Below are positions 9,868 to 24,014 of a stretch of 42,344 nt of DNA, one piece after another. Position 1 is the stretch's first letter. Each line of letters opens with the position of its first letter. Location of the stretch: assembly GCA_017387685.1 (NCBI GenBank), contig JAFOEU010000006.1:1-42344 (forward strand), read 5' to 3'. The DNA is from Clostridia bacterium. Its GTDB lineage: Bacteria; Bacillota; Clostridia; Oscillospirales; CAG-272. The notes under the pieces were generated by a model, which saw only the letters and a list, made by a program, of their open reading frames with translations, had not been told where the DNA came from and ran no database searches. The translations under genes and the position numbers were made by a program.

Positions 9868-10626
9868 TTACGAAACGATCTTGACGCCCAAGGCCGCAAG
9901 AACATCGAAAAGTTCATTTGAGACAGGAGGGTTTGTAACAATATAATCAGCTACCGAGATATCGCTGATCTTGGCAAATGCACAATGACCGAACTTTGAG
10001 CGATCAGCAGCAATTATACAAAGCGCCGATTGCTCTATCATAGCCACGTCAACGTCACATTCCTTGTTGTAGTAGGTGGTAAAGCCGCGAGTGGGATCTA
10101 CCCCGTCCACAGATAAGATAAGCTTGTCGGCGTGGTATTTACGAATCTGATTAGTGGCGTCGTTGCCATAGGTAAACTGATATTTCGTGTTGACAGCGCC
10201 GCCTGCCAGAATAACGTTGTAGTTGGGATTGCTGGACGCCTCAAGAGCTATAGAGATGGAGTTCGTCACGATATTGAGGTTGTAGTCGGCGGGAAATTTA
10301 CGAAATGCCAAAAGCGTGGTAGTTCCGGCGTTAAGCATGATGGTATCGTTTGGCTCAATGAGATCGGCAATCTTTTCCGCGATCTCCACCTTCTCCTTTT
10401 GGTTAGCTTCCAACCTTTGATTGAGGTTCATACTGTAATACGGCTTATATGAGCTCACTGCGCCGCCGTGTATACGCGCAAGAAGTCCTTTTTTCTCCAT
10501 ATCCTCAAGGTAAGCGCGCACCGTTACTTCGCTGACCCCGAAAAGACGACTCAGTTCCGTCACTTTTACCGAGTCATTTTCCTTTAACAGTTCGCTTATT
10601 TTTTGTTTTCTTTGTTCGGCTGTCAT
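9868..10626 (-). CDS. DeoR-family transcriptional repressor of the sugar cassette
   Basis: 252 residues. The N-terminal winged helix-turn-helix (VKVTELSRLFGVSEVTVRAYL, then the ARIHGGA wing) is the DeoR signature. The C-terminal DeoRC sensor domain carries NAGTTTLLAF and LAGGAVN segments, an IsoCoA/ribose-isomerase-like fold that binds a phosphorylated sugar. The start is ATG 10626, chosen because a GGGGAG ribosome site precedes it; a TTG 15 bases upstream would lie in that site. It diverges from the five-gene sugar cassette, and a palindrome overlaps the -35 of the cassette promoter, so it most likely represses that operon until a sugar phosphate from the pathway accumulates. It may also act on its own promoter. 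Confidence 0.88.
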   Translation of the reverse strand: MTAEQRKQKISELLKENDSVKVTELSRLFGVSEVTVRAYLEDMEKKGLLARIHGGAVSSYKPYYSMNLNQRLEANQKEKVEIAEKIADLIEPNDTIMLNAGTTTLLAFRKFPADYNLNIVTNSISIALEASSNPNYNVILAGGAVNTKYQFTYGNDATNQIRKYHADKLILSVDGVDPTRGFTTYYNKECDVDVAMIEQSALCIIAADRSKFGHCAFAKISDISVADYIVTNPPVSNELFDVLAALGVKIVS

Positions 10627-10659
10627 TTTTCTCTCCCCCAAAAATATCTTTCACTTTGA

Positions 10660-10720: not shown

Positions 10721-10750
10721 ACAAAAGAATAACTTTCGTTTCTCTTTTGT
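10721..10750. promoter_or_regulatory. Inverted repeat in the divergent control region
   Basis: ACAAAAGA (10721-10728) and TCTTTTGT (10743-10750) form an 8-bp interrupted inverted repeat upstream of both promoters. The right arm lies in TTTCTCTTTTGT, which resembles half of the palindrome at 10781-10797. This could be a second regulator site. Confidence 0.35.
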
Positions 10751-10780
10751 CGCGAATTAAAAGCAAACAAAATCGAAAAT

Positions 10781-10797
10781 TTCTCTTGACAAGAGAA
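10781..10797. promoter_or_regulatory. Palindromic candidate operator over the cassette -35 box
   Basis: TTCTCTTGACAAGAGAA is a perfect 8+1+8 palindrome whose centre is the TTGACA -35 box (10786-10791) of the sugar cassette. A repressor bound here would block RNA polymerase. The adjacent DeoR-family protein is the obvious candidate. Confidence 0.6.
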
Positions 10798-10814
10798 AGA
10801 TTGTGTAGTAAAAT
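10786..10814 (+). promoter_or_regulatory. Promoter of the sugar cassette
   Basis: TTGACA (10786-10791), a 17-base spacer and TAAAAT (10809-10814) lie 46 bases before the first gene. Confidence 0.75.
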
Positions 10815-10859
10815 AGTATAAGTGAAACACTTAAAATAATAATATGAAAGGAAAATTTT

Positions 10860-11561
10860 ATGTATAAGGGATTTAAAATAAAGCCTCCTTTTTTTGAGGT
10901 AGGTCCAAAGGCGATCATCTGGGGCGATGAAATGCTCAAGCTGGCAAAGGTAATCGACAAGGTAGCAATAAAATACGACGTCGACATTATCGTAACGCCG
11001 CAGTATACTGACATCAAGCTTTTGGCGGACAATACTGAAAGAATACTCATTTTCGCTCAGCATATGGACGCCTTGGTCCCCGGAAGAGGACTCGGAAGTG
11101 TACTCCCCGAAGCAGTCAAGGAAGCGGGGGCAGTGGGCGTAATGCTCAACCACGCCGAAAAGCCGCTTGATATGGAAACTCTTGAGAAGACCATCCGCCG
11201 CGCTGACGAAGTAGGACTTGCCACTATCGTTTGTGCTGATACGGTGGAGGACGTAAAGAGAATTGCTCATATGTCGCCGAACCTTATCGTTGCTGAACCG
11301 ACAGAGCTTATCGGAACGGGAACGACAAGCGATTCAAACTACGTTATCGAGACCATAAAGACTGTTCAGGAAATCAATCCCGAGATCATGGTATTACAGG
11401 GAGCGGGAATCTCGAACGGTCGGGACGTTTACAATACTATCAAGCTTGGTGCACAGGCAACGGGCTCTACGAGCGGCATACTCAAGGCGGCGGATCCTTA
11501 CGCTATGGTCGAGGAAATGATCTCCAACCTCCGCAAAGCCTGGGATGAGCTTCATCCTTGA
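10860..11561 (+). CDS. Triose-phosphate-isomerase-like protein (TIM family, short form)
   Basis: 233 residues, shorter than bacterial glycolytic TPI (about 250) and closer to archaeal TIM proteins. Visible are the catalytic histidine in LNHAEKP (H98), the catalytic glutamate with its flexible loop in AEPTELIGTG (E146), and phosphate-binding turns GAGIS and TGSTSG. The usual N-terminal Asn-x-Lys is replaced by GPK (K17), so the Asn is missing. It is the first gene of the DeoR-controlled cassette, beside two other isomerases and a kinase. A dedicated role on a pathway sugar phosphate (triose or tetrulose phosphate) is more likely than glycolysis. AAAGGA lies before ATG. The family is sure; the substrate is inferred. 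Confidence 0.85.
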   Translation: MYKGFKIKPPFFEVGPKAIIWGDEMLKLAKVIDKVAIKYDVDIIVTPQYTDIKLLADNTERILIFAQHMDALVPGRGLGSVLPEAVKEAGAVGVMLNHAEKPLDMETLEKTIRRADEVGLATIVCADTVEDVKRIAHMSPNLIVAEPTELIGTGTTSDSNYVIETIKTVQEINPEIMVLQGAGISNGRDVYNTIKLGAQATGSTSGILKAADPYAMVEEMISNLRKAWDELHP

Positions 11562-11574
11562 GGAGACGGTAATT

Positions 11575-12168
11575 ATGAAAAAAGAAGCTATCGAAATGGC
11601 GAAAAAAGCATACCTCACAGAGAGCGAATGCATTTTGAAAATGCTTGACTACTTCGATGAGGAAGTGTATTCTAAGGCTGTAGAACTTCTAAAAAATGCT
11701 CCCCGTATAGCTGCGGCAGGATGCGGTCACAGCGGAATAATGTGTCAGCATTTTACACACCTGATGTGTTGCATAGAACGTCCCGCCAGATTTATATCTC
11801 CCGCAGAGGCGGTACACGGTGGTACGGGGTATCTTCAGGAGGGAGATGTTATGGTGCTTGCTTCCCGAGGCGGAAAAACGCAGGAGCTGGTGCCTATTCT
11901 TGACATCTGCAAGAAAAAGGGAGTCAAGGTAATCACTATAACCGAAAACACAGAGTCTCCATTGGCTCGCGGGGCTGACGTAGTAATAAAGCAATACGTA
12001 AACAAAGAGACCGACAAATACAATTGCCAAGGAACAACCTCTTCTGTTTCGTTAGCGGTGATATTCCACGTTTTACAGACTGCGCTTATCGAGGAAACAG
12101 ATTTTCGGAATGAAAGCTTTGCCATCGTGCATCCCAGCGGGGCGGTCGGCGAACGACTCAATAAATAA
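11575..12168 (+). CDS. SIS-domain sugar-phosphate isomerase (KdsD/GutQ-like, no CBS domains)
   Basis: 197 residues from ATG 11575; GAGGAG at 11560-11565 supports this start, overlapping the stop of the previous gene. A single SIS domain shows AAAGCGHSGIMCQHF, the FISPAEAVHGGTG segment that in arabinose-5-phosphate isomerases holds the catalytic histidine, ASRGGKTQEL where the family usually has S-x-SGET-EL, and the closing HPSGAVGERL. Enzymes of this type interconvert ketose- and aldose-5-phosphates (ribulose-5-P with arabinose-5-P). The CBS regulatory pair of KdsD is absent. The altered phosphosugar loop hints at another substrate. It probably works with the kinase and isomerase downstream. 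Confidence 0.85.
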   Translation: MKKEAIEMAKKAYLTESECILKMLDYFDEEVYSKAVELLKNAPRIAAAGCGHSGIMCQHFTHLMCCIERPARFISPAEAVHGGTGYLQEGDVMVLASRGGKTQELVPILDICKKKGVKVITITENTESPLARGADVVIKQYVNKETDKYNCQGTTSSVSLAVIFHVLQTALIEETDFRNESFAIVHPSGAVGERLNK

Positions 12169-12227
12169 CGAGATATTAAAAATAAAAAATAACAATAAAA
12201 TTTATAAAATCAAGGAGATTTAAAACT

Positions 12228-12848
12228 ATGGAATTCAAAGTTTATCAAAAAGAAATCGAACTTCAGTCAAGAGGCTGGATCCCCACCTTCCACGACATCA
12301 GAAAAGAGATTCTCGACATTGTTGAGGCTTCGGGCGTTAAGAACGGCACAGTTGCCATCGTTTCTCATCACACTACCTGCTCCGTAATGGTTCAGGAGTG
12401 CTCTCACGATATCGACTCCTTCGATCTTGAGTACCTTCAGCACGACCTGCTCGACATTATGAGAAAGATGATCCCCGACTTTGCTGAAGAGCATCAGTAC
12501 CGTCATCCCGGCCCTGTACACGCACAGTACGGCAGATACGTTAACGAGCCCGGCGACTACACCAGTATGAACACAGACGGACATCTCCGTTCCGTATTCT
12601 TCGGCAGAAGCGAAACTCTTACCATCAAGGACGGCAAGGTCGACCTCGGTCTGTTTGCTCACGTCTACTTCATCGACTGGGATCATGTTTCTGCCCGCCG
12701 CAGACAGGTTAACGTAACCGTTATGGGAACGACAGAGGATGTTGAGGACAGAAAGATCAACGACGGTAAGGTAATCGATACACGTCACAAGTTTACCGAC
12801 GAGGAGAAGGCTTACGACATTCATTTCGATCTTCAGCAGCAGAGATAA
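12228..12848 (+). CDS. YjbQ-family (UPF0047) protein, extended form
   Basis: 206 residues; the usual family length is about 130-140. Core motifs are present: SHHTTCSVMVQE (about 46-57), a D-rich helix LEYLQHDLLDIM, YRHPGP, NTDGHLRSVFFG (115-126), the IKDGKVDLGLFAHVYFIDWD strand pair and RRRQVNVTVMG. Compared with the family there is an extra loop (about residues 95-114) and a 38-residue C-terminal tail. Related YjbQ proteins have weak thiamine-phosphate synthase activity in vitro, but their physiological role is unknown. The gene sits inside a sugar operon between a SIS isomerase and a sugar kinase, after an AT-rich 59-base gap with AAGGAG. Its isomerase-like histidines and the context suggest a sugar-phosphate reaction; this is inference. 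Codon use is more biased than in its neighbours, suggesting higher expression. Confidence 0.85.
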   Translation: MEFKVYQKEIELQSRGWIPTFHDIRKEILDIVEASGVKNGTVAIVSHHTTCSVMVQECSHDIDSFDLEYLQHDLLDIMRKMIPDFAEEHQYRHPGPVHAQYGRYVNEPGDYTSMNTDGHLRSVFFGRSETLTIKDGKVDLGLFAHVYFIDWDHVSARRRQVNVTVMGTTEDVEDRKINDGKVIDTRHKFTDEEKAYDIHFDLQQQR

Positions 12849-12852
12849 GACA

Positions 12853-14250
12853 ATGAATTTGATGGGAATTGACATTGGCACAACCTCTGTAAAAACGGCT
12901 GTGTTCAATGATGCTCTTGAGCAACAGATATCCTCTACTGCGGATTATACCCTTGACTCTCACGGAGACACCGTTGAATTTGACGGTGAAAAATACTGGG
13001 AGATAGTCAAAGCTGAGATCGAAAAAGCCAAAGCTTCCGTGGGGGTGGATGCCCTTGCGGTAGATACACAGTGTGAAACTCTCATACTCACCGACGAGTA
13101 CGGCACTCCCGTGCGTCCTGCTATAGTCTGGCTTGATAACAGAGCTACAGAGGAAGCGCAGATAATCACGGAAAAATTCGGTCACAAGCGAGTTTACGAG
13201 ATCACAGGACAGCCCGAGATAACGGCGACATGGCCAGCCTGCAAGCTTTTGTGGGTAAAAAGACATGAACCGGATGTCTGGGATAAGACAAAGAAGATCT
13301 TTCTTCTTGAGGATTGGATACTGTATAAGCTCACGGGAAAATTCATCAGCGAGAAGACGCTTCAATCATCTACCATTTACTTCGATATCCACAAGGCGCA
13401 GTGGTGGGACGAGATGCTTGACTTTATCGGTATCGATAGAAAGATGCTTCCCGCTTTGTATTCAAGCGCCAAGGCTGTAGGCGAATACGATGGCATGAAG
13501 GTGGTTACGGGTGCTATTGACCAGATAGCCGGTGCTATTGGAGCAGGCGTTATCAGGCAGGGCACTGTCAGCGTTATGACAGGAACCACCATGGTCATAT
13601 TCATGCCCTCTGAGACCGTTCCCGAATATGACGAAAAAAGCATCGTTCCCTGTCATTATAACTATGACGATAAATACTGCTTACTTTCCTGGACTCCTAC
13701 AGCGGGTATGGCGCTGAAATGGTTTAGAAATGCTCTTTGCGAGAATTTCTCCTTTGCCGAGCTTGACAAGCTTGCGGACAGCGTTCCTGCGGGAAGCGAT
13801 GGACTTACCTTCCTTCCCTACCTTTGCGGTTCAACTATGCCAAAGTATAATCCCGCGGCAAGAGGCAGCTTCACCGGACTTACTACCGAGCACACGAGAG
13901 CCCACTTTGTAAGAAGCGTTATGGAATCTGTAGCTTGTATGCTAAAGTCAAATCTTGACTATCTTGGACTTGACGTTGAAGAGATCAGAGCCATGGGCGG
14001 CGGAGCCAACAGCCCATTCTGGTGTCAGATGAAAGCAGATATGACAGGCAAGAGACTTGTAACTCTAAAAAACAAAGAAACTGCTTGTCTGGGTTCCGCG
14101 ATACTCGCCGGCGTTGGAACGGGAGTTTTTGAGTCCGTGGAGCAGGCAGCAAAAGTAATAGAGCTTGACAAAATATTTGAAAGTAAGGGCACTGATTATA
14201 CAGAGTGCTACGAGAGATATCTCAATTACGATAAGATACTGAATATTTGA
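12853..14250 (+). CDS. FGGY-family carbohydrate kinase
   Basis: ATP-dependent kinase of the xylulokinase/rhamnulokinase/gluconokinase superfamily, 465 residues. The N-terminal actin-like domain starts with MGIDIGTTSVK (phosphate-1 loop) and has WLDNRA (W93-R97) in the sugar-binding loop and VTGAIDQIAGAIGAG with the catalytic aspartate D223. The C-terminal domain has a SVMTGTTM segment and an MGGGANSPFW adenosine motif. The exact sugar cannot be read. It begins 4 bases after the YjbQ-family stop with only a weak ribosome site, so it probably depends on coupling. Isoleucine ATA codons are common here, unlike in lacZ or lysS, which suggests a different origin for the cassette. Confidence 0.9.
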   Translation: MNLMGIDIGTTSVKTAVFNDALEQQISSTADYTLDSHGDTVEFDGEKYWEIVKAEIEKAKASVGVDALAVDTQCETLILTDEYGTPVRPAIVWLDNRATEEAQIITEKFGHKRVYEITGQPEITATWPACKLLWVKRHEPDVWDKTKKIFLLEDWILYKLTGKFISEKTLQSSTIYFDIHKAQWWDEMLDFIGIDRKMLPALYSSAKAVGEYDGMKVVTGAIDQIAGAIGAGVIRQGTVSVMTGTTMVIFMPSETVPEYDEKSIVPCHYNYDDKYCLLSWTPTAGMALKWFRNALCENFSFAELDKLADSVPAGSDGLTFLPYLCGSTMPKYNPAARGSFTGLTTEHTRAHFVRSVMESVACMLKSNLDYLGLDVEEIRAMGGGANSPFWCQMKADMTGKRLVTLKNKETACLGSAILAGVGTGVFESVEQAAKVIELDKIFESKGTDYTECYERYLNYDKILNI

Positions 14251-14266
14251 CCGAAAGGAACTAGTT

Positions 14267-15619
14267 ATGGCAAAGATTGGATTTATAGGCTTTGGTGAGG
14301 TTAACACTCCCGTTGACGTTATAATAAGAAAATGCAGTGCCGCAGAAGCAGCTCTCAAGGCTGAGGGACTTGATCTCGTATCAGTATATCCCGTAGCCGA
14401 CGACTATGAAGAGACTCAGGTCAAGGGCGCGCTGGATGCACTGAGCAAGGAAAAGTTTGACGCACTGGTAGTCTGCATCGCGGGTTGGATTCCCACTCAC
14501 GCAGTAGTTAAGGTCACAGAGCATTACAGACATCTTCCCATGGTGCTTTGGGGACTTTGCGGCTGGTATGAGGGAGACAGACTTGTAACTACCGCCGATC
14601 AAGCAGGTACAACAGGACTCCGCGCTACCTTTGAGGGACTTGGCTATAAGTTCAAATATGTCTATGATATTATAGGCAAGAAAACAAAGAGCGACGTTGT
14701 TGCGAACTATTGTAAGGCGGCTGTCGCAGCCAAGGCTCTTCTTACTGATAAAGTAGGTATGGCAGGATATCGCGATATGAACCTCTACGGTACATTATAC
14801 GACGGAATGTCTCTGAAGAAAACTACGGGCATCGAGATAGAGACCTTCGAGATGCTTGAGATACAGCAGAGATACGAGAAGCTTTCCGAGGAAGAAAAGA
14901 GAGAGGTCGTCAATAACAGGATCCTCAAATGGAACTTCCTCAAGCCCGCCAAGGACGAGGGAATGATGATGGCGGCGGGATACTATCTCGCTGTCAAGCA
15001 GATAGCCGAAGAGAGAAATTATAAATCCATTTCTCTTAAGGACGTTGACGGTATGAAGAAGCTCTGCGGCTTCCCCCCTGCTCCTATATTTATGCTTCTG
15101 TCCGAGGATGGATATACCACCGTTCCCGAGAACGATTCTCTCGGAGCAGTAACACAGCTTATGATGAACAGACTCACAGGACAGCTCGCAGGATATCTTG
15201 AGTTCTATGAGTTCTTTGAGGGCAGCGTTCTTGCCGGCGTCCCCGACTTTGTAGCTGCTGATATGATCGACGGTGAAACTTACACAGTGCTTCCCGCGGC
15301 TTTCGGTCTGCTTACGCAGGGCATACTCAACGTCTCAAAGGTAAAGACAGGCGTGCTTACAATGAGCAGACTTGTGTATAAGGACGGCAAGTACACGATG
15401 CACGTGATCCTCGGTAACGGCAAGACTCCTCCCAAGTGGGAAGAATGCGGTTGGGATCAGCCGGCACCTCAGCTCTCTGCTCTTGAGATAGAAATTCCGG
15501 ACGTTGAGAACTTCGCCCAGAATGTTGCTTGTCAGCATTATATCATTACCTACGGTGATAACAGAGCTCAGATCGCAGATCTTTGCGGAATGCTGGGTAT
15601 TGACGTTATGTATCTCTAA
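14267..15619 (+). CDS. L-fucose/L-arabinose isomerase-like protein
   Basis: 450 residues, shorter than FucI (about 590) and AraA (about 500). The N-terminal Rossmann-like part (KIGFIGFGEVNTPVD...) and the C-terminal beta-rich part (TGVLTMSRLVYKDGKYTMHVILGNG) fit the fucose/arabinose isomerase fold, which converts an aldose to a ketose with a divalent metal. LVVCIAGWIPTHAVV and LWGLCGWYEGDRL are typical of the fold. I cannot place the metal ligands with certainty. It follows the FGGY kinase by 16 bases with GAAAGGAAC upstream and is the last gene before a very strong terminator. The likely order is this isomerase, then the kinase, then the SIS and TIM enzymes. The actual sugar is unknown. Confidence 0.82.
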   Translation: MAKIGFIGFGEVNTPVDVIIRKCSAAEAALKAEGLDLVSVYPVADDYEETQVKGALDALSKEKFDALVVCIAGWIPTHAVVKVTEHYRHLPMVLWGLCGWYEGDRLVTTADQAGTTGLRATFEGLGYKFKYVYDIIGKKTKSDVVANYCKAAVAAKALLTDKVGMAGYRDMNLYGTLYDGMSLKKTTGIEIETFEMLEIQQRYEKLSEEEKREVVNNRILKWNFLKPAKDEGMMMAAGYYLAVKQIAEERNYKSISLKDVDGMKKLCGFPPAPIFMLLSEDGYTTVPENDSLGAVTQLMMNRLTGQLAGYLEFYEFFEGSVLAGVPDFVAADMIDGETYTVLPAAFGLLTQGILNVSKVKTGVLTMSRLVYKDGKYTMHVILGNGKTPPKWEECGWDQPAPQLSALEIEIPDVENFAQNVACQHYIITYGDNRAQIADLCGMLGIDVMYL

Positions 15620-15627
15620 ACACCATA

Positions 15628-15666
15628 AAAAAACAATGCATCGCAAATTGCGATGCATTGTTTTTT
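15628..15666. terminator. Bidirectional terminator between sugar cassette and lysS
   Basis: A perfect 18-bp inverted repeat with a 3-base loop (15628-15645 with 15649-15666), with A runs on one side and T runs on the other. It serves both the plus-strand cassette and the converging lysS operon. Confidence 0.9.
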
Positions 15667-15673
15667 ATGTTTA

Positions 15674-17179
15674 TCAGTCGATGGGCTTCATTGTGGGGAA
15701 CAGGAGGACGTCGCGGATGGATGCGGAGTCGGTGAGGAGCATTACGAGTCTGTCTACGCCGAAGCCAAGTCCGCCTGTGGGGGGGAGGCCGTACTCGAGA
15801 GCGGTGATGTAGTCGTAATCAACCTGCGCCTTGCACGCGGGATCCTGTGCCTTTCTCTCTGCCACCTGACGCTCAAAGCGTTCTCTCTGGTCGATAGGAT
15901 CGTTGAGCTCGGAGAATGCGTTGCCGAATTCGGTTGCGTTGATGAAGTACTCAAAGCGCTCGGTGAATGCGGGATCCTCGGGCTTTCTCTTTGCGAGCGG
16001 GCTGTTCTCTACGGGGTAATCGTAGATGAAGGTGGGCTGGATGAGGTTCTCCTCAACGAATGCGTCGAAGAACTCAACGAGGATCGCGCCCTTGGTCTTA
16101 ACAGCGGGAAGCTCAACGTGCTTTTCCTTTGCGATCGCGATCGCTTCCTCATCGGAGGTGATAGCGGCAAAGTCAACGCCGGAATACTTCTTGACAGCCT
16201 CAACCATGGTCATTCTCTCCCACTTGGAGAGGTCGATCTCCTTGCCCTGATAGTTTACGGTAAGAGTTCCGCAAACGTTCATCGCAACGGTCTTCATCAT
16301 CTCCTCAACGAGGTCCATCATACCGTGATAATCGGTGTACGCCTGATAGAGCTCGATGGAGGTGAACTCGGGGTTATGCTTGGTATCCATACCCTCGTTA
16401 CGGAAGATACGTCCTACCTCGTATACCTTATCCATACCGCCGACGATAAGACGCTTGAGGTAGAGCTCGGTCTCAATGCGGAGAACCATATCCATATCAA
16501 GAGTGTTGTGATGGGTAAGGAAGGGGCGTGCGGATGCGCCGATCTCAAAGGGGGTAAGTATGGGGGTATCAACCTCAAGGAAGCCCTTGGAGTCGAGGAA
16601 AGCGCGGAGCTCGCGCATAATAAGGCTGCGCTTTACAAAGGTATCCTTAACCTCGGGATTAACGATGAGGTCGAGGTATCTCTGACGGTAACGGGTATCG
16701 GTATCCTTAAGTCCGTGGAACTTCTCGGGGAGAGGCAAGAGGGACTTGGAAAGGAGGGTGAGCTTCTGCGCGTGGATCGAGATCTCGCCGCGGCGGGTGA
16801 GGAATACAAATCCCTCGATACCGATGATATCACCGATATCCCACTTGCGGTAGTCTGCAAAAACCTCTTCGCCGATGTCGTTGATACGGATGTAGCACTG
16901 AATTCTGCCCTTACCGTCAGCAAGGTCGATGAAGTTTGCTTTGCCCATATCGCGGCGGCTCATAATACGACCTGCAAGAGAAACGGTCTTACCGTCCCAC
17001 TCCTCGAAATTTGCCTTGATGTCAGCCGAATAAGCGGTGACGTCATACTTCATAATTTCGAAGGGGTTCTTGCCCGCTTCAATAAGATTTTCAAGCTTTG
17101 CGCGTCTGATCTCTATCTCCGAGGATACGTTCACCTCGGGGGATTCGACGGCATTTTCGTTGTTGATAATATCTGCCAT
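15674..17179 (-). CDS. lysS: Lysyl-tRNA synthetase, class II
   Basis: Attaches lysine to tRNA-Lys using ATP. 501 residues, the normal length. The N-terminal OB-fold anticodon-binding domain (about 65-160, with SLAGRIMSRRDMGKANFIDLADG.G) is followed by the class II catalytic core: motif 1 around FLEVDTPIL, motif 2 VYEVGRIFRNEGMDTKHNPEFTS (in part) and motif 3 GLGFGVDRLVML. The C-terminus LFPTMKPID is typical. It is the last gene of a seven-gene minus-strand run, 17 bases after greA, and ends at a strong bidirectional terminator. No T-box leader is visible before it, so its level should follow the operon promoter. Confidence 0.96.
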   Translation of the reverse strand: MADIINNENAVESPEVNVSSEIEIRRAKLENLIEAGKNPFEIMKYDVTAYSADIKANFEEWDGKTVSLAGRIMSRRDMGKANFIDLADGKGRIQCYIRINDIGEEVFADYRKWDIGDIIGIEGFVFLTRRGEISIHAQKLTLLSKSLLPLPEKFHGLKDTDTRYRQRYLDLIVNPEVKDTFVKRSLIMRELRAFLDSKGFLEVDTPILTPFEIGASARPFLTHHNTLDMDMVLRIETELYLKRLIVGGMDKVYEVGRIFRNEGMDTKHNPEFTSIELYQAYTDYHGMMDLVEEMMKTVAMNVCGTLTVNYQGKEIDLSKWERMTMVEAVKKYSGVDFAAITSDEEAIAIAKEKHVELPAVKTKGAILVEFFDAFVEENLIQPTFIYDYPVENSPLAKRKPEDPAFTERFEYFINATEFGNAFSELNDPIDQRERFERQVAERKAQDPACKAQVDYDYITALEYGLPPTGGLGFGVDRLVMLLTDSASIRDVLLFPTMKPID

Positions 17180-17196
17180 TTTATATGGATCCTCTC

Positions 17197-17685
17197 TTAC
17201 TTATTCTTGGTTCTTTCAACCTTGAGGATATCAAGCTCGAAAGAGCCGTTGGGAGCGTCAACGGTAACGGTTGCGCCCGCCTTCTTACCGACGAGTGCGC
17301 GGCCGATGGGGCACATATCCGAGATCTTATCCTCGGCGGGAGATGCCTCGTTGGAGCCTACGATAATGTAGGTAACTTCCATCTGATCGTCCTTGTCGAA
17401 TACGGTTACGGTAGAACCGACGGAAATAATGGTGGAGTCGATCTGGCTTTCGTCGATGATAACGGCATTCTGGATCTTATCCTCAAGCTCCTTAATGCGG
17501 CTTTCAACTCTCGCCTGTTCTGTTCTCGCCTCATCGTACTCTGCGTTCTCGGAAAGGTCTCCGAATCCACGAGCTACTTCGATGTCGTGAATAACTTCTG
17601 CGCGGCGTGTATTTTTCAGATAATCGAGCTCGGCTACCAGTTCGTTGTAGCCTTCCTGGGTATAATAAATAGGTTTAGTGGACAT
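17197..17685 (-). CDS. greA: Transcription elongation factor GreA
   Basis: Rescues backtracked RNA polymerase by stimulating cleavage of the nascent RNA 3' end. 162 residues, standard length. The N-terminal coiled-coil carries DLSENAEYDEAR, the acidic tip that enters the polymerase channel, and the C-terminal FKBP-like domain ends with ISDMCPIGRALVGKKAGATVTVDAP. The start is ATG 17685 with AAGGAG 6 bases upstream. It lies between the S41 protease (11-base gap) and lysS (17-base gap) on one transcript. The greA-lysS pairing is frequent in Bacillota. Confidence 0.96.
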   Translation of the reverse strand: MSTKPIYYTQEGYNELVAELDYLKNTRRAEVIHDIEVARGFGDLSENAEYDEARTEQARVESRIKELEDKIQNAVIIDESQIDSTIISVGSTVTVFDKDDQMEVTYIIVGSNEASPAEDKISDMCPIGRALVGKKAGATVTVDAPNGSFELDILKVERTKNK

Positions 17686-23264: not shown

Positions 23265-24014
23265 TTATCTTAGTTCAAATTCAGAGGAAAGACACGCGAG
23301 CACGAAGGCTGCTGCGCTCTCGGTTCTGAGTATTCTTTTGCCGAGTCCGAGGAGCGAAAGACCTGCTTTTTCTGCTCTTTCAGCCTCTTCCGGGGAAAAA
23401 CCTCCCTCAGGTCCGACTACGATCGCAACTGTTTTCGGCGGGTTGGCGCGAAGTGCTTCAAGAGTTGCACCGAGCATTCTCTCGCCTTCTTTTTCATAGC
23501 AAAAGATCGCAAGGTCTGCCTTTGCGGCTTCGGCTATCATATCCGCGAACGAAATCGGCTCGGCAACTGCGGGAATGATTCCGCGTCCGCACTGCTTTGC
23601 CGCTTCGGCGGCTATACGGCGGCGGCGCTGTGATTTTGAGCCCTCCTTTTCGCCCTTCATACGGACGATACAGCGCGAGGATTCAAATGGTACTATATTG
23701 CTGACGCCGAATTCAACCGACTTCTGAATGGCAACGTCAAGCCTTTCGCCCTTGACGAGTGCCTGATAAAGAGTCGCGCGGTAAGGCGGCTCGGCAGGGC
23801 ACGGGCGAGAGATCTCTATATCGCAATCCACGCGATCGTCGCGGATCTTGGTGAGGTTGCACTCATAGTCCATTCCCTCCCCGTCGCAAACTGTGAGAGC
23901 ATCACCGACAGCCATACGAAGCGATCGAGCTATATGAAACGCATCCTCTCCGAGTATGGAGATTGAGCGTTCTTCTTCATTTATATTCTCTTTTGACACG
24001 AAAAAGCGGGGCAT
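23265..24014 (-). CDS. rsmE: 16S rRNA (uracil-1498-N3)-methyltransferase RsmE
   Basis: Methylates U1498 of 16S rRNA in the decoding centre. 249 residues. The N-terminal PUA-like part (MPRFFV....GEDAFHIARSLRMAVGD) is followed by a SPOUT knot domain with KGERLDVAIQKSVEFGVSNIVPFESSRC, VGPEGGFSPEE and LGKRILRTESAA, the SAM-binding knot. It is transcribed alone from a perfect consensus promoter and ended by a terminator. ATG 24014 is preceded by GGGAGGTC. Confidence 0.95.
   Translation of the reverse strand: MPRFFVSKENINEEERSISILGEDAFHIARSLRMAVGDALTVCDGEGMDYECNLTKIRDDRVDCDIEISRPCPAEPPYRATLYQALVKGERLDVAIQKSVEFGVSNIVPFESSRCIVRMKGEKEGSKSQRRRRIAAEAAKQCGRGIIPAVAEPISFADMIAEAAKADLAIFCYEKEGERMLGATLEALRANPPKTVAIVVGPEGGFSPEEAERAEKAGLSLLGLGKRILRTESAAAFVLACLSSEFELR

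Follow-up and report, generated by a model that had tools for sequence, protein, structure and literature searches.

A conserved DeoR-flanked five-gene cassette of Clostridia, probably an aldose operon built from two parts

The sequence analyzed here, referred to as the window, is a 42,344-nt stretch from a Clostridia bacterium (contig JAFOEU010000006.1). Between positions 9868 and 15666 it carries five co-directional genes behind a sigma-70-type promoter, with a divergently oriented DeoR gene on one side and a terminator on the other. The five genes encode a triose-phosphate-isomerase homologue (TIM), a phosphosugar isomerase homologue (SIS), a member of the UPF0047 family (YjbQ), an FGGY carbohydrate kinase (FGGY) and a fucose-isomerase-like protein (ISO). 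Unless another protein is named, TIM, SIS and YjbQ denote the cassette-type variants, and FSA denotes a fructose-6-phosphate-aldolase-type gene. A preliminary description of this DNA had recognized the DeoR-flanked set with one promoter and one strong terminator, and a family search and signal scan confirmed it. We consider that the cassette is probably a DeoR-regulated catabolic operon for some aldose, built from two parts, in which a front end (ISO and FGGY) seems to be coupled to a back end of reusable phosphosugar enzymes (TIM, YjbQ and usually SIS). Conserved linkage, location on one strand, a common operator word, conserved residues and the co-occurrence of TIM with YjbQ support the operon reading, and TIM and YjbQ are the tightest pair of the cassette.

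Conservation of the cassette and co-occurrence of TIM and YjbQ

To collect relatives of ISO, one genome per species was scanned with an isomerase alignment; 354 relatives were obtained, and the best 80 loci were analyzed. Gene presence was counted by tblastn, while gene order and neighbors were taken from codon-scored gene calls over 94 sources, duplicates included. At these 80 loci, which are not fully independent (L034 and L037 come from one assembly), FGGY was found at 69, TIM at 52, YjbQ at 44, SIS at 40 and FSA at 33; the corresponding figures for the 40 loci flanked on each side by 6 kb of sequence were 35, 28, 25, 24 and 21. As frequent with ISO as TIM was c1, a cytosolic-looking, neutral-ceramidase-like protein of about 490 aa (52/80 and 28/40; loci L034-L113), which sometimes forms a lone pair with ISO. 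All five cassette genes were present at 37 of the 80 loci, invariably co-directional and in nine gene orders, the commonest being that of the window (TIM SIS YjbQ FGGY ISO; 13/37); several relatives with this order run on into FSA and c1. The five genes thus occur together elsewhere, and no characterized pathway with the same genes turned up in the searches made, so that neither of the outcomes named by the preliminary description as refuting its reading was observed. Its statement that aldolase and transporter are lacking holds inside the window cassette and fails elsewhere, where transporters occur in some relatives and FSA is present as a sixth gene at 29 of the 37 complete loci; the missing aldolase is therefore a property of the window copy. 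When only relatives with a close ISO (at least 62% identity, n=10) were considered, TIM was present in 10/10, YjbQ in 9/10 and a high-scoring SIS in 9/10, one genome (G001) being the exception for both. A ruminant gut site is named in 41 of the 80 locus record titles, the others mostly naming no host.

Profiles of TIM, YjbQ and SIS (cut-offs 1e-30, 1e-30 and 1e-40) and of ISO (1e-30) were then searched against an even sample of 291 genomes of the class. TIM and YjbQ were found in the identical 38 genomes (26 of 181 genera) and neither in the remaining 253 (Fisher p = 1.5e-48, uncorrected for phylogeny). SIS was found in 35 genomes, 33 of them common with the pair, and ISO in 22, of which 18 also had TIM. 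The two partners are also physically close: YjbQ lay within 3 kb of 41 of 44 TIM places, and TIM within 3 kb of 48 of 55 YjbQ places. Twenty regions were hand-picked from these 55 places, and their neighbors were named by eye from sequence; YjbQ was called in 19 of them, and TIM accompanied it in 17 of these. The fronts beside YjbQ in these regions were AraA-like plus kinase, XylA-like plus kinase, NagA/NagB-like, RpiB-like, KDPG-aldolase-like, and class II aldolase plus Rpe-like plus kinase. A parallel operon recurred in L180, L181, L185, L188 and L192, with an AraA-like isomerase of about 460 aa, an amidohydrolase-like protein of about 340 aa, TIM and YjbQ, and in several copies an FGGY kinase, a second YjbQ, SIS or FSA; its isomerase and amidohydrolase were likewise named by eye, and a similar pair in L121 fell below the family cut-offs.

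The pair is also found outside the class. When plasmids were searched with TIM, 16 records matched (Shinella 5, Enterococcus 6, Lacticaseibacillus 1, haloarchaea 4), and YjbQ directly followed TIM in 5/5 bacterial records inspected, out of 12 bacterial ones. In Shinella the operon consists of SDR, sugar isomerase/epimerase, TIM, YjbQ and FGGY, its kinase sharing with that of the window a TGQPEI..TWP stretch and 33% identity overall. Plasmids of Enterococcus faecium and L. paracasei carry PTS, class II aldolase, TIM and YjbQ; that of E. raffinosus carries aldolase, TIM and YjbQ, with no PTS in the operon. Together with the shared distribution, these neighbors suggest that a front end is joined to a reusable back end. 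The plasmid matches to YjbQ itself numbered 164 records, 153 of them from Enterococcus, of which only 9/164 cover 80% of the query; another E. faecium plasmid (L144) has a PTS-YjbQ-Rpe-HxlB operon, HxlB being a SIS protein.

Several observations weigh against the two-part operon. Fisher tests ignore kinship. Four of the 22 class genomes with ISO have no TIM (G100, G273, G312 and G330), so that ISO does not strictly depend on the back end. SIS without TIM was seen in two class genomes (G114 and G210). Among 59 nearer relatives, 14 had both TIM and YjbQ, with one exception each way: G001, 85% complete, has TIM only, and YjbQ alone is present in G029, where it lies at the edge of a contig. At 43 of the 80 ISO loci at least one of the five genes was absent within the DNA examined, partly from contig ends. 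FSA-type genes are not specific to carriers, being present in 29 of the 59 nearer relatives; they were found in 8 of the 10 close-ISO relatives and not in G001 and G005, whose assemblies are 85-86% complete. Furthermore, the proposed operon does not account for c1, which is not part of the window cassette, the rest of the window genome not having been searched for it. Finally, no substrate, transporter or glycosidase was consistently linked to the cassette loci. For substrate clues, 189 near-cassette proteins were considered, 56 in already annotated clusters were set aside, and no family matched more than 5 of the 111 scanned out of the remaining 133.

Individual loci have distinctive neighbors. 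Five tandem genes of a GH39-like cluster, c3, adjoin the cassette in L050 (1606-8381; family checked on the L041 copy). Upstream of the cassette in L037 and L041 lie galactonate dehydratase, KDG-type kinase, KDPG-type aldolase and GH39 genes (dehydratase, kinase and GH39 family-checked on L041, the remainder named by eye). In L106 (4760-8457) a glycyl radical enzyme, its activase and a nucleoside-hydrolase-like gene lie directly upstream of FGGY-ISO-c1. A plasmid search for ISO gave one weak record, at 22% identity.

Signals, conserved residues and codon usage of the window cassette

The features of the window cassette are as follows.

9868-10626, minus strand: DeoR-family regulator, divergent from the cassette (DeoRC PF00455, 152 bits)
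10734-10741, no strand assigned: TTTCGTTT, likely DeoR operator element (conserved word in DeoR-divergent regions)
10780-10798, no strand assigned: perfect palindrome TTTCTCTTgacAAGAGAAA covering the -35 box (palindrome scan)
10786-10814, plus strand: sigma-70-type promoter, TTGACA (10786), 17 nt, TAAAAT (10814), 11/12 positions, a consensus match only
10860-11561, plus strand: TIM, archaeal-type triose-phosphate-isomerase homologue (PF00121, 75.8 bits; NF003302, 202.3 bits)
11575-12168, plus strand: SIS, KpsF/GutQ-like phosphosugar isomerase homologue (PF01380, 72 bits)
12228-12848, plus strand: YjbQ, UPF0047 family, 206-aa subfamily (PF01894, 86.7 bits)
12853-14250, plus strand: FGGY carbohydrate kinase, XylB-like overall, substrate loop QCET (FGGY_N 157 bits, FGGY_C 102 bits)
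14267-15619, plus strand: ISO, distant member of the fucose/arabinose/sulfoquinovose isomerase superfamily (weak PF02952 match)
15628-15666, no strand assigned: intrinsic terminator with an 18-bp stem, scoring on both strands (terminator scan)

The DeoR gene is taken to start at the ATG at 10626, the listed reading frame opening at a TTG at 10641. For SIS, 11575 was preferred over 11545, with a good ribosome site by eye and most relatives at about 198 aa. Downstream and convergent with the cassette lie lysS and greA (15674-17685), named by eye from sequence; they adjoin the cassette both here and in L182, a genome of another family, and this adjacency is perhaps an old shared location.

The word TTTCGTTT or its complement AAACGAAA occurred in 15 of 18 DeoR-divergent intergenic regions, with 1.3 expected and a maximum of 4 in 200 shuffles, each region running from a DeoR gene to its next divergent neighbor, which in some cases lies outside the cassette. 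From this recurrence, TTTCGTTT is likely to be the DeoR operator element. The TTTCTCTTgacAAGAGAAA palindrome was rejected as a conserved operator, as the palindromes found in the remaining 17 regions do not include it. A divergent DeoR gene adjoins the operon in several relatives too.

Residues of the expected active sites are well conserved among the relatives; the catalytic roles that we ascribe to those kept in TIM, FSA, FGGY and ISO are presumed, being based on the literature or on weak alignments. In TIM, K17, H98 and E146 are kept in 26/26 sequences, and ExGPK replaces the canonical NxK in 26/26. This loop reads FEVGPK in the window, GNWK in TpiA of the same genome and GTSWK in two Rhizobium plasmid TIMs; it is NPK in the TIM of Enterococcus and Lacticaseibacillus and EIGTK in a second TIM type of the relatives. 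TIM passes the archaeal-type NF003302 cut-off (202.3 versus 132 bits), falls below that of the TIGR00419 equivalog (102.5 versus 130.6 bits) and lacks the NxK motif. A canonical TpiA is encoded elsewhere in the window genome, so TIM is presumably dispensable for glycolysis. SIS scores below TIGR00393, the KpsF/GutQ arabinose 5-phosphate isomerase model (107.7 versus 203.7 bits), and at aligned positions differs from these isomerases by His for Lys in 22/25 and RGGK for NSGE; its nearest solved relative is 3fxa (215 bits), an uncharacterized SIS protein that we take to be from Listeria. A second SIS paralogue of the same genome (L136, contig G000:C65) lies beside an MFS-like transporter and a glycerol-1-phosphate-dehydrogenase-like gene. 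YjbQ passes both TIGR00149 (70.1 versus 67.75) and PF01894 (86.7 versus 27).

FGGY falls below the XylB cut-off (TIGR01312; 323.2 versus 380.25 bits), and its loop is QCET in 19/28 and QGET in 9/28, not the QMHG of XylB; D223 is kept in 28/28. ISO misses the PF02952 cut-off (27 versus 29.3 bits), and its best curated match, SftI (NF048012), reaches 42.9 bits against a cut-off of 700; E288, E312 and H424 are nevertheless present in 52/52. The relatives' FSA has the TAL_FSA fold (L097 copy: PF00923, 176 bits; TIGR00875, 228.9 bits, below 245.95) and keeps D6, Q59, K86, T110 and Y132 in 23/23 copies, Gln59 and Tyr132 marking it as FSA-type rather than transaldolase.

Codon usage is compatible with separate histories for two parts, a suggestive pattern. 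ATA makes up 13/30 Ile codons in FGGY, 10/24 in ISO, 7/14 in SIS, 5/23 in TIM and 0/14 in YjbQ, compared with 81/586 in a hand-picked set of 20 other window reading frames (DeoR, lysS and greA excluded); the excess over this set is significant for FGGY plus ISO (p=1.2e-6) and for SIS (p=0.0017) and not for TIM plus YjbQ (p=1.0). Similarly, AGA/AGG accounts for 85% of Arg codons in FGGY and 83% in ISO, and for 0 to 75% in the 20 others. In some relatives, furthermore, FGGY-ISO-TIM and SIS-YjbQ lie on separate contigs. The hint of separate origin that the preliminary description had read from ATA codons thus fits, FGGY and ISO being codon-biased and TIM plus YjbQ not; SIS, however, shares the ATA excess, and YjbQ and one other reading frame are likewise rich in AGA/AGG, so the split is not clean. 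Other window reading frames are ATA-rich as well (8/18 Ile codons at 23265-24014), so the codon argument is suggestive only.

Proposed route and alternative explanations

Based on the families of its enzymes, ISO would convert an aldose to a ketose and FGGY the ketose to a ketose phosphate. TIM, YjbQ and SIS would then shift the carbonyl or reset a stereocentre of the ketose phosphate, like the three isomerases of erythritol catabolism, and the product would be handed to an FSA-type aldolase or to the pentose phosphate pathway. In the window genome, whose assembly is 85% complete, the aldolase would be a single FSA-type gene: the sole FSA/transaldolase-type gene found is unlinked, on contig C107. 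In this organism the route may therefore be complete or incomplete. If correct, the operon would represent an additional route by which bacteria of the herbivore gut use a sugar of plant or gut origin.

More tentatively, we propose that TIM and YjbQ may form an obligate two-enzyme step, as consecutive reactions or one complex, acting on a ketose phosphate outside the known pathway charts and plugged into many different sugar operons of Clostridia, Bacilli and Alphaproteobacteria. We know of no settled function for the YjbQ/UPF0047 family, for which at least eight structures have been solved. If true, the step would be the first physiological reaction for this family and a new branch point of sugar phosphate metabolism; with a second protein that shares the distribution of YjbQ across the 291 genomes and mostly lies next to it in the same direction, the question of YjbQ function becomes one for a two-protein assay. 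A passage of PMC7954711 lists E. coli YjbQ with unknown function and states that its overproduction relieves a pdxB block, which hints at phosphosugar chemistry and proves nothing. No account of the TIM/YjbQ pair or of the cassette was found in the literature, and among the listed papers on UPF0047/YjbQ no title concerned sugar catabolism; the search covered open-licence full text only and is hence weak evidence of absence. Two papers retrieved concern D-tagatose use engineered in E. coli (PMC10101011) and background on FGGY only (PMC3245297).

An alternative that we regard as unlikely is a route for D-arabinose or D-ribose via arabinose 5-phosphate, the natural reverse of a published synthetic pathway. 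ISO would yield D-ribulose, FGGY ribulose 5-phosphate and SIS arabinose 5-phosphate, which FSA would cleave to glycolaldehyde and glyceraldehyde 3-phosphate, TIM equilibrating the triose phosphates. The linkage of FSA at 29 of the 37 complete loci is consistent with this scheme, as is the finding that SIS, among curated models, is nearest to KpsF/GutQ; however, SIS misses that cut-off (107.7 versus 203.7) and differs at the aligned residues. Ribulose 5-phosphate, moreover, normally exits through Rpe, and TIM and YjbQ would be left unexplained. In favor of such sugars, a few relatives have neighbors of nucleoside type, namely BMP-type ABC genes in 6 of the 94 sources (three of the six being duplicates of the other three) and the nucleoside-hydrolase-like gene in L106. 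A passage of PMC9947464 lists FsaA as an arabinose 5-phosphate aldolase followed by KdsD, the same pair working in the opposite direction.

We similarly doubt a tetrose route, the idea of the preliminary description, in which ISO would form tetrulose, FGGY tetrulose phosphate, and TIM with YjbQ or SIS erythrose 4-phosphate. The kinase loop QCET retains the Glu of the glycerol kinase QRET, L190 carries TIM-SIS-YjbQ followed by an RpiB-like gene (by eye), the Shinella TIM-YjbQ-FGGY set is accompanied by SDR and sugar isomerase/epimerase, and the pdxB relief by yjbQ overexpression (PMC7954711) would fit. The two Rhizobium TIMs beside RpiB (L137, read as an ery-type operon with EryH from annotated gene order, and L138) have also lost the loop Asn, but TIM is just 18% and 16% identical to them, and the TIM of Enterococcus and Lacticaseibacillus retains Asn (NPK), so its loss is not general. 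In addition, the cassette has no tetritol dehydrogenase, EryC or RpiB, and the FSA-type aldolase would have no clear role.

Least probable among these three is that TIM, YjbQ and SIS form a general module that cleans up or repairs sugar phosphates which are damaged or mis-made, and that this module is merely parked beside many sugar operons and does not supply the steps of a single route. The trio or the TIM-YjbQ pair does adjoin a wide range of genes: XylA-like plus kinase, NagA/NagB-like, AraA-like plus kinase, class II aldolase plus Rpe-like plus kinase and KDPG-aldolase-like (all by eye), and PTS plus class II aldolase (annotated). However, at the cut-offs applied 253/291 class genomes have neither TIM nor YjbQ, a distribution unlike that of housekeeping repair, and at 37/37 complete loci the trio reads in the same direction as kinase and isomerase. 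Apiose was rejected, as apulose 4-phosphate requires a transketolase and the cassette has none (literature on apulose, apiose isomerase and apionate, judged by title, held nothing on this gene set); sulfoquinovose was rejected in view of the scores of ISO and FSA, and a DHPS-type glycyl radical dehydratase because the L106 enzyme lies far under every curated cut-off matched, only its activase passing a general one.

Comparison with known systems

Overall, the conserved unit, the lack of a pathway match and the hint of separate origin survive from the preliminary interpretation, whereas the absence of an aldolase and membership among erythritol systems do not. None of the five proteins matches the erythritol-phosphate dehydrogenase EryB, racemase EryC or RpiB families, and the identities to the Rhizobium TIMs given above do not indicate an EryH-type TIM. 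As an analogy, the isomerase logic of erythritol catabolism is fair and the nearest one: a passage of PMC5992420 describes a kinase, a dehydrogenase and then three isomerases. In the EryA/B/C/H/I system, as would be the case here, several isomerases, including a TIM homologue without the loop Asn, act in turn on a phosphosugar made by a kinase, and a DeoR-type regulator lies nearby. The cassette differs in its TIM branch, its aldose isomerase front end and the FSA of its relatives.

Xylose, arabinose and fucose operons likewise place an aldose isomerase and then an FGGY kinase under one regulator. In contrast to these, ISO and FGGY of the cassette fall below every curated NCBIfam cut-off matched, Rpe, AraD, RhaD and FucA are lacking, and there are three extra phosphosugar-type proteins. 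The SftI/sulfo-transaldolase pathway resembles the cassette in that SftI is the best curated match of ISO and a gene of the FSA/transaldolase fold follows in relatives; however, the ISO score is far from the SftI cut-off, the cassette has a kinase, and the FSA profile of the relatives is nearer to FSA (230 bits) than to the sulfofructose transaldolase structure (159 bits). The synthetic arabinose 5-phosphate route (FsaA, KdsD and Rpe) also partners FSA with a KpsF/GutQ-like SIS protein, but it is engineered, runs in the opposite direction and lacks TIM and YjbQ, and the aligned residues of SIS differ. Lastly, YjbQ belongs to the YjbQ/UPF0047 family by curated models and is set apart within it as a 206-aa subfamily with a YxxPGP insertion and a C-terminal extension, tied to TIM.

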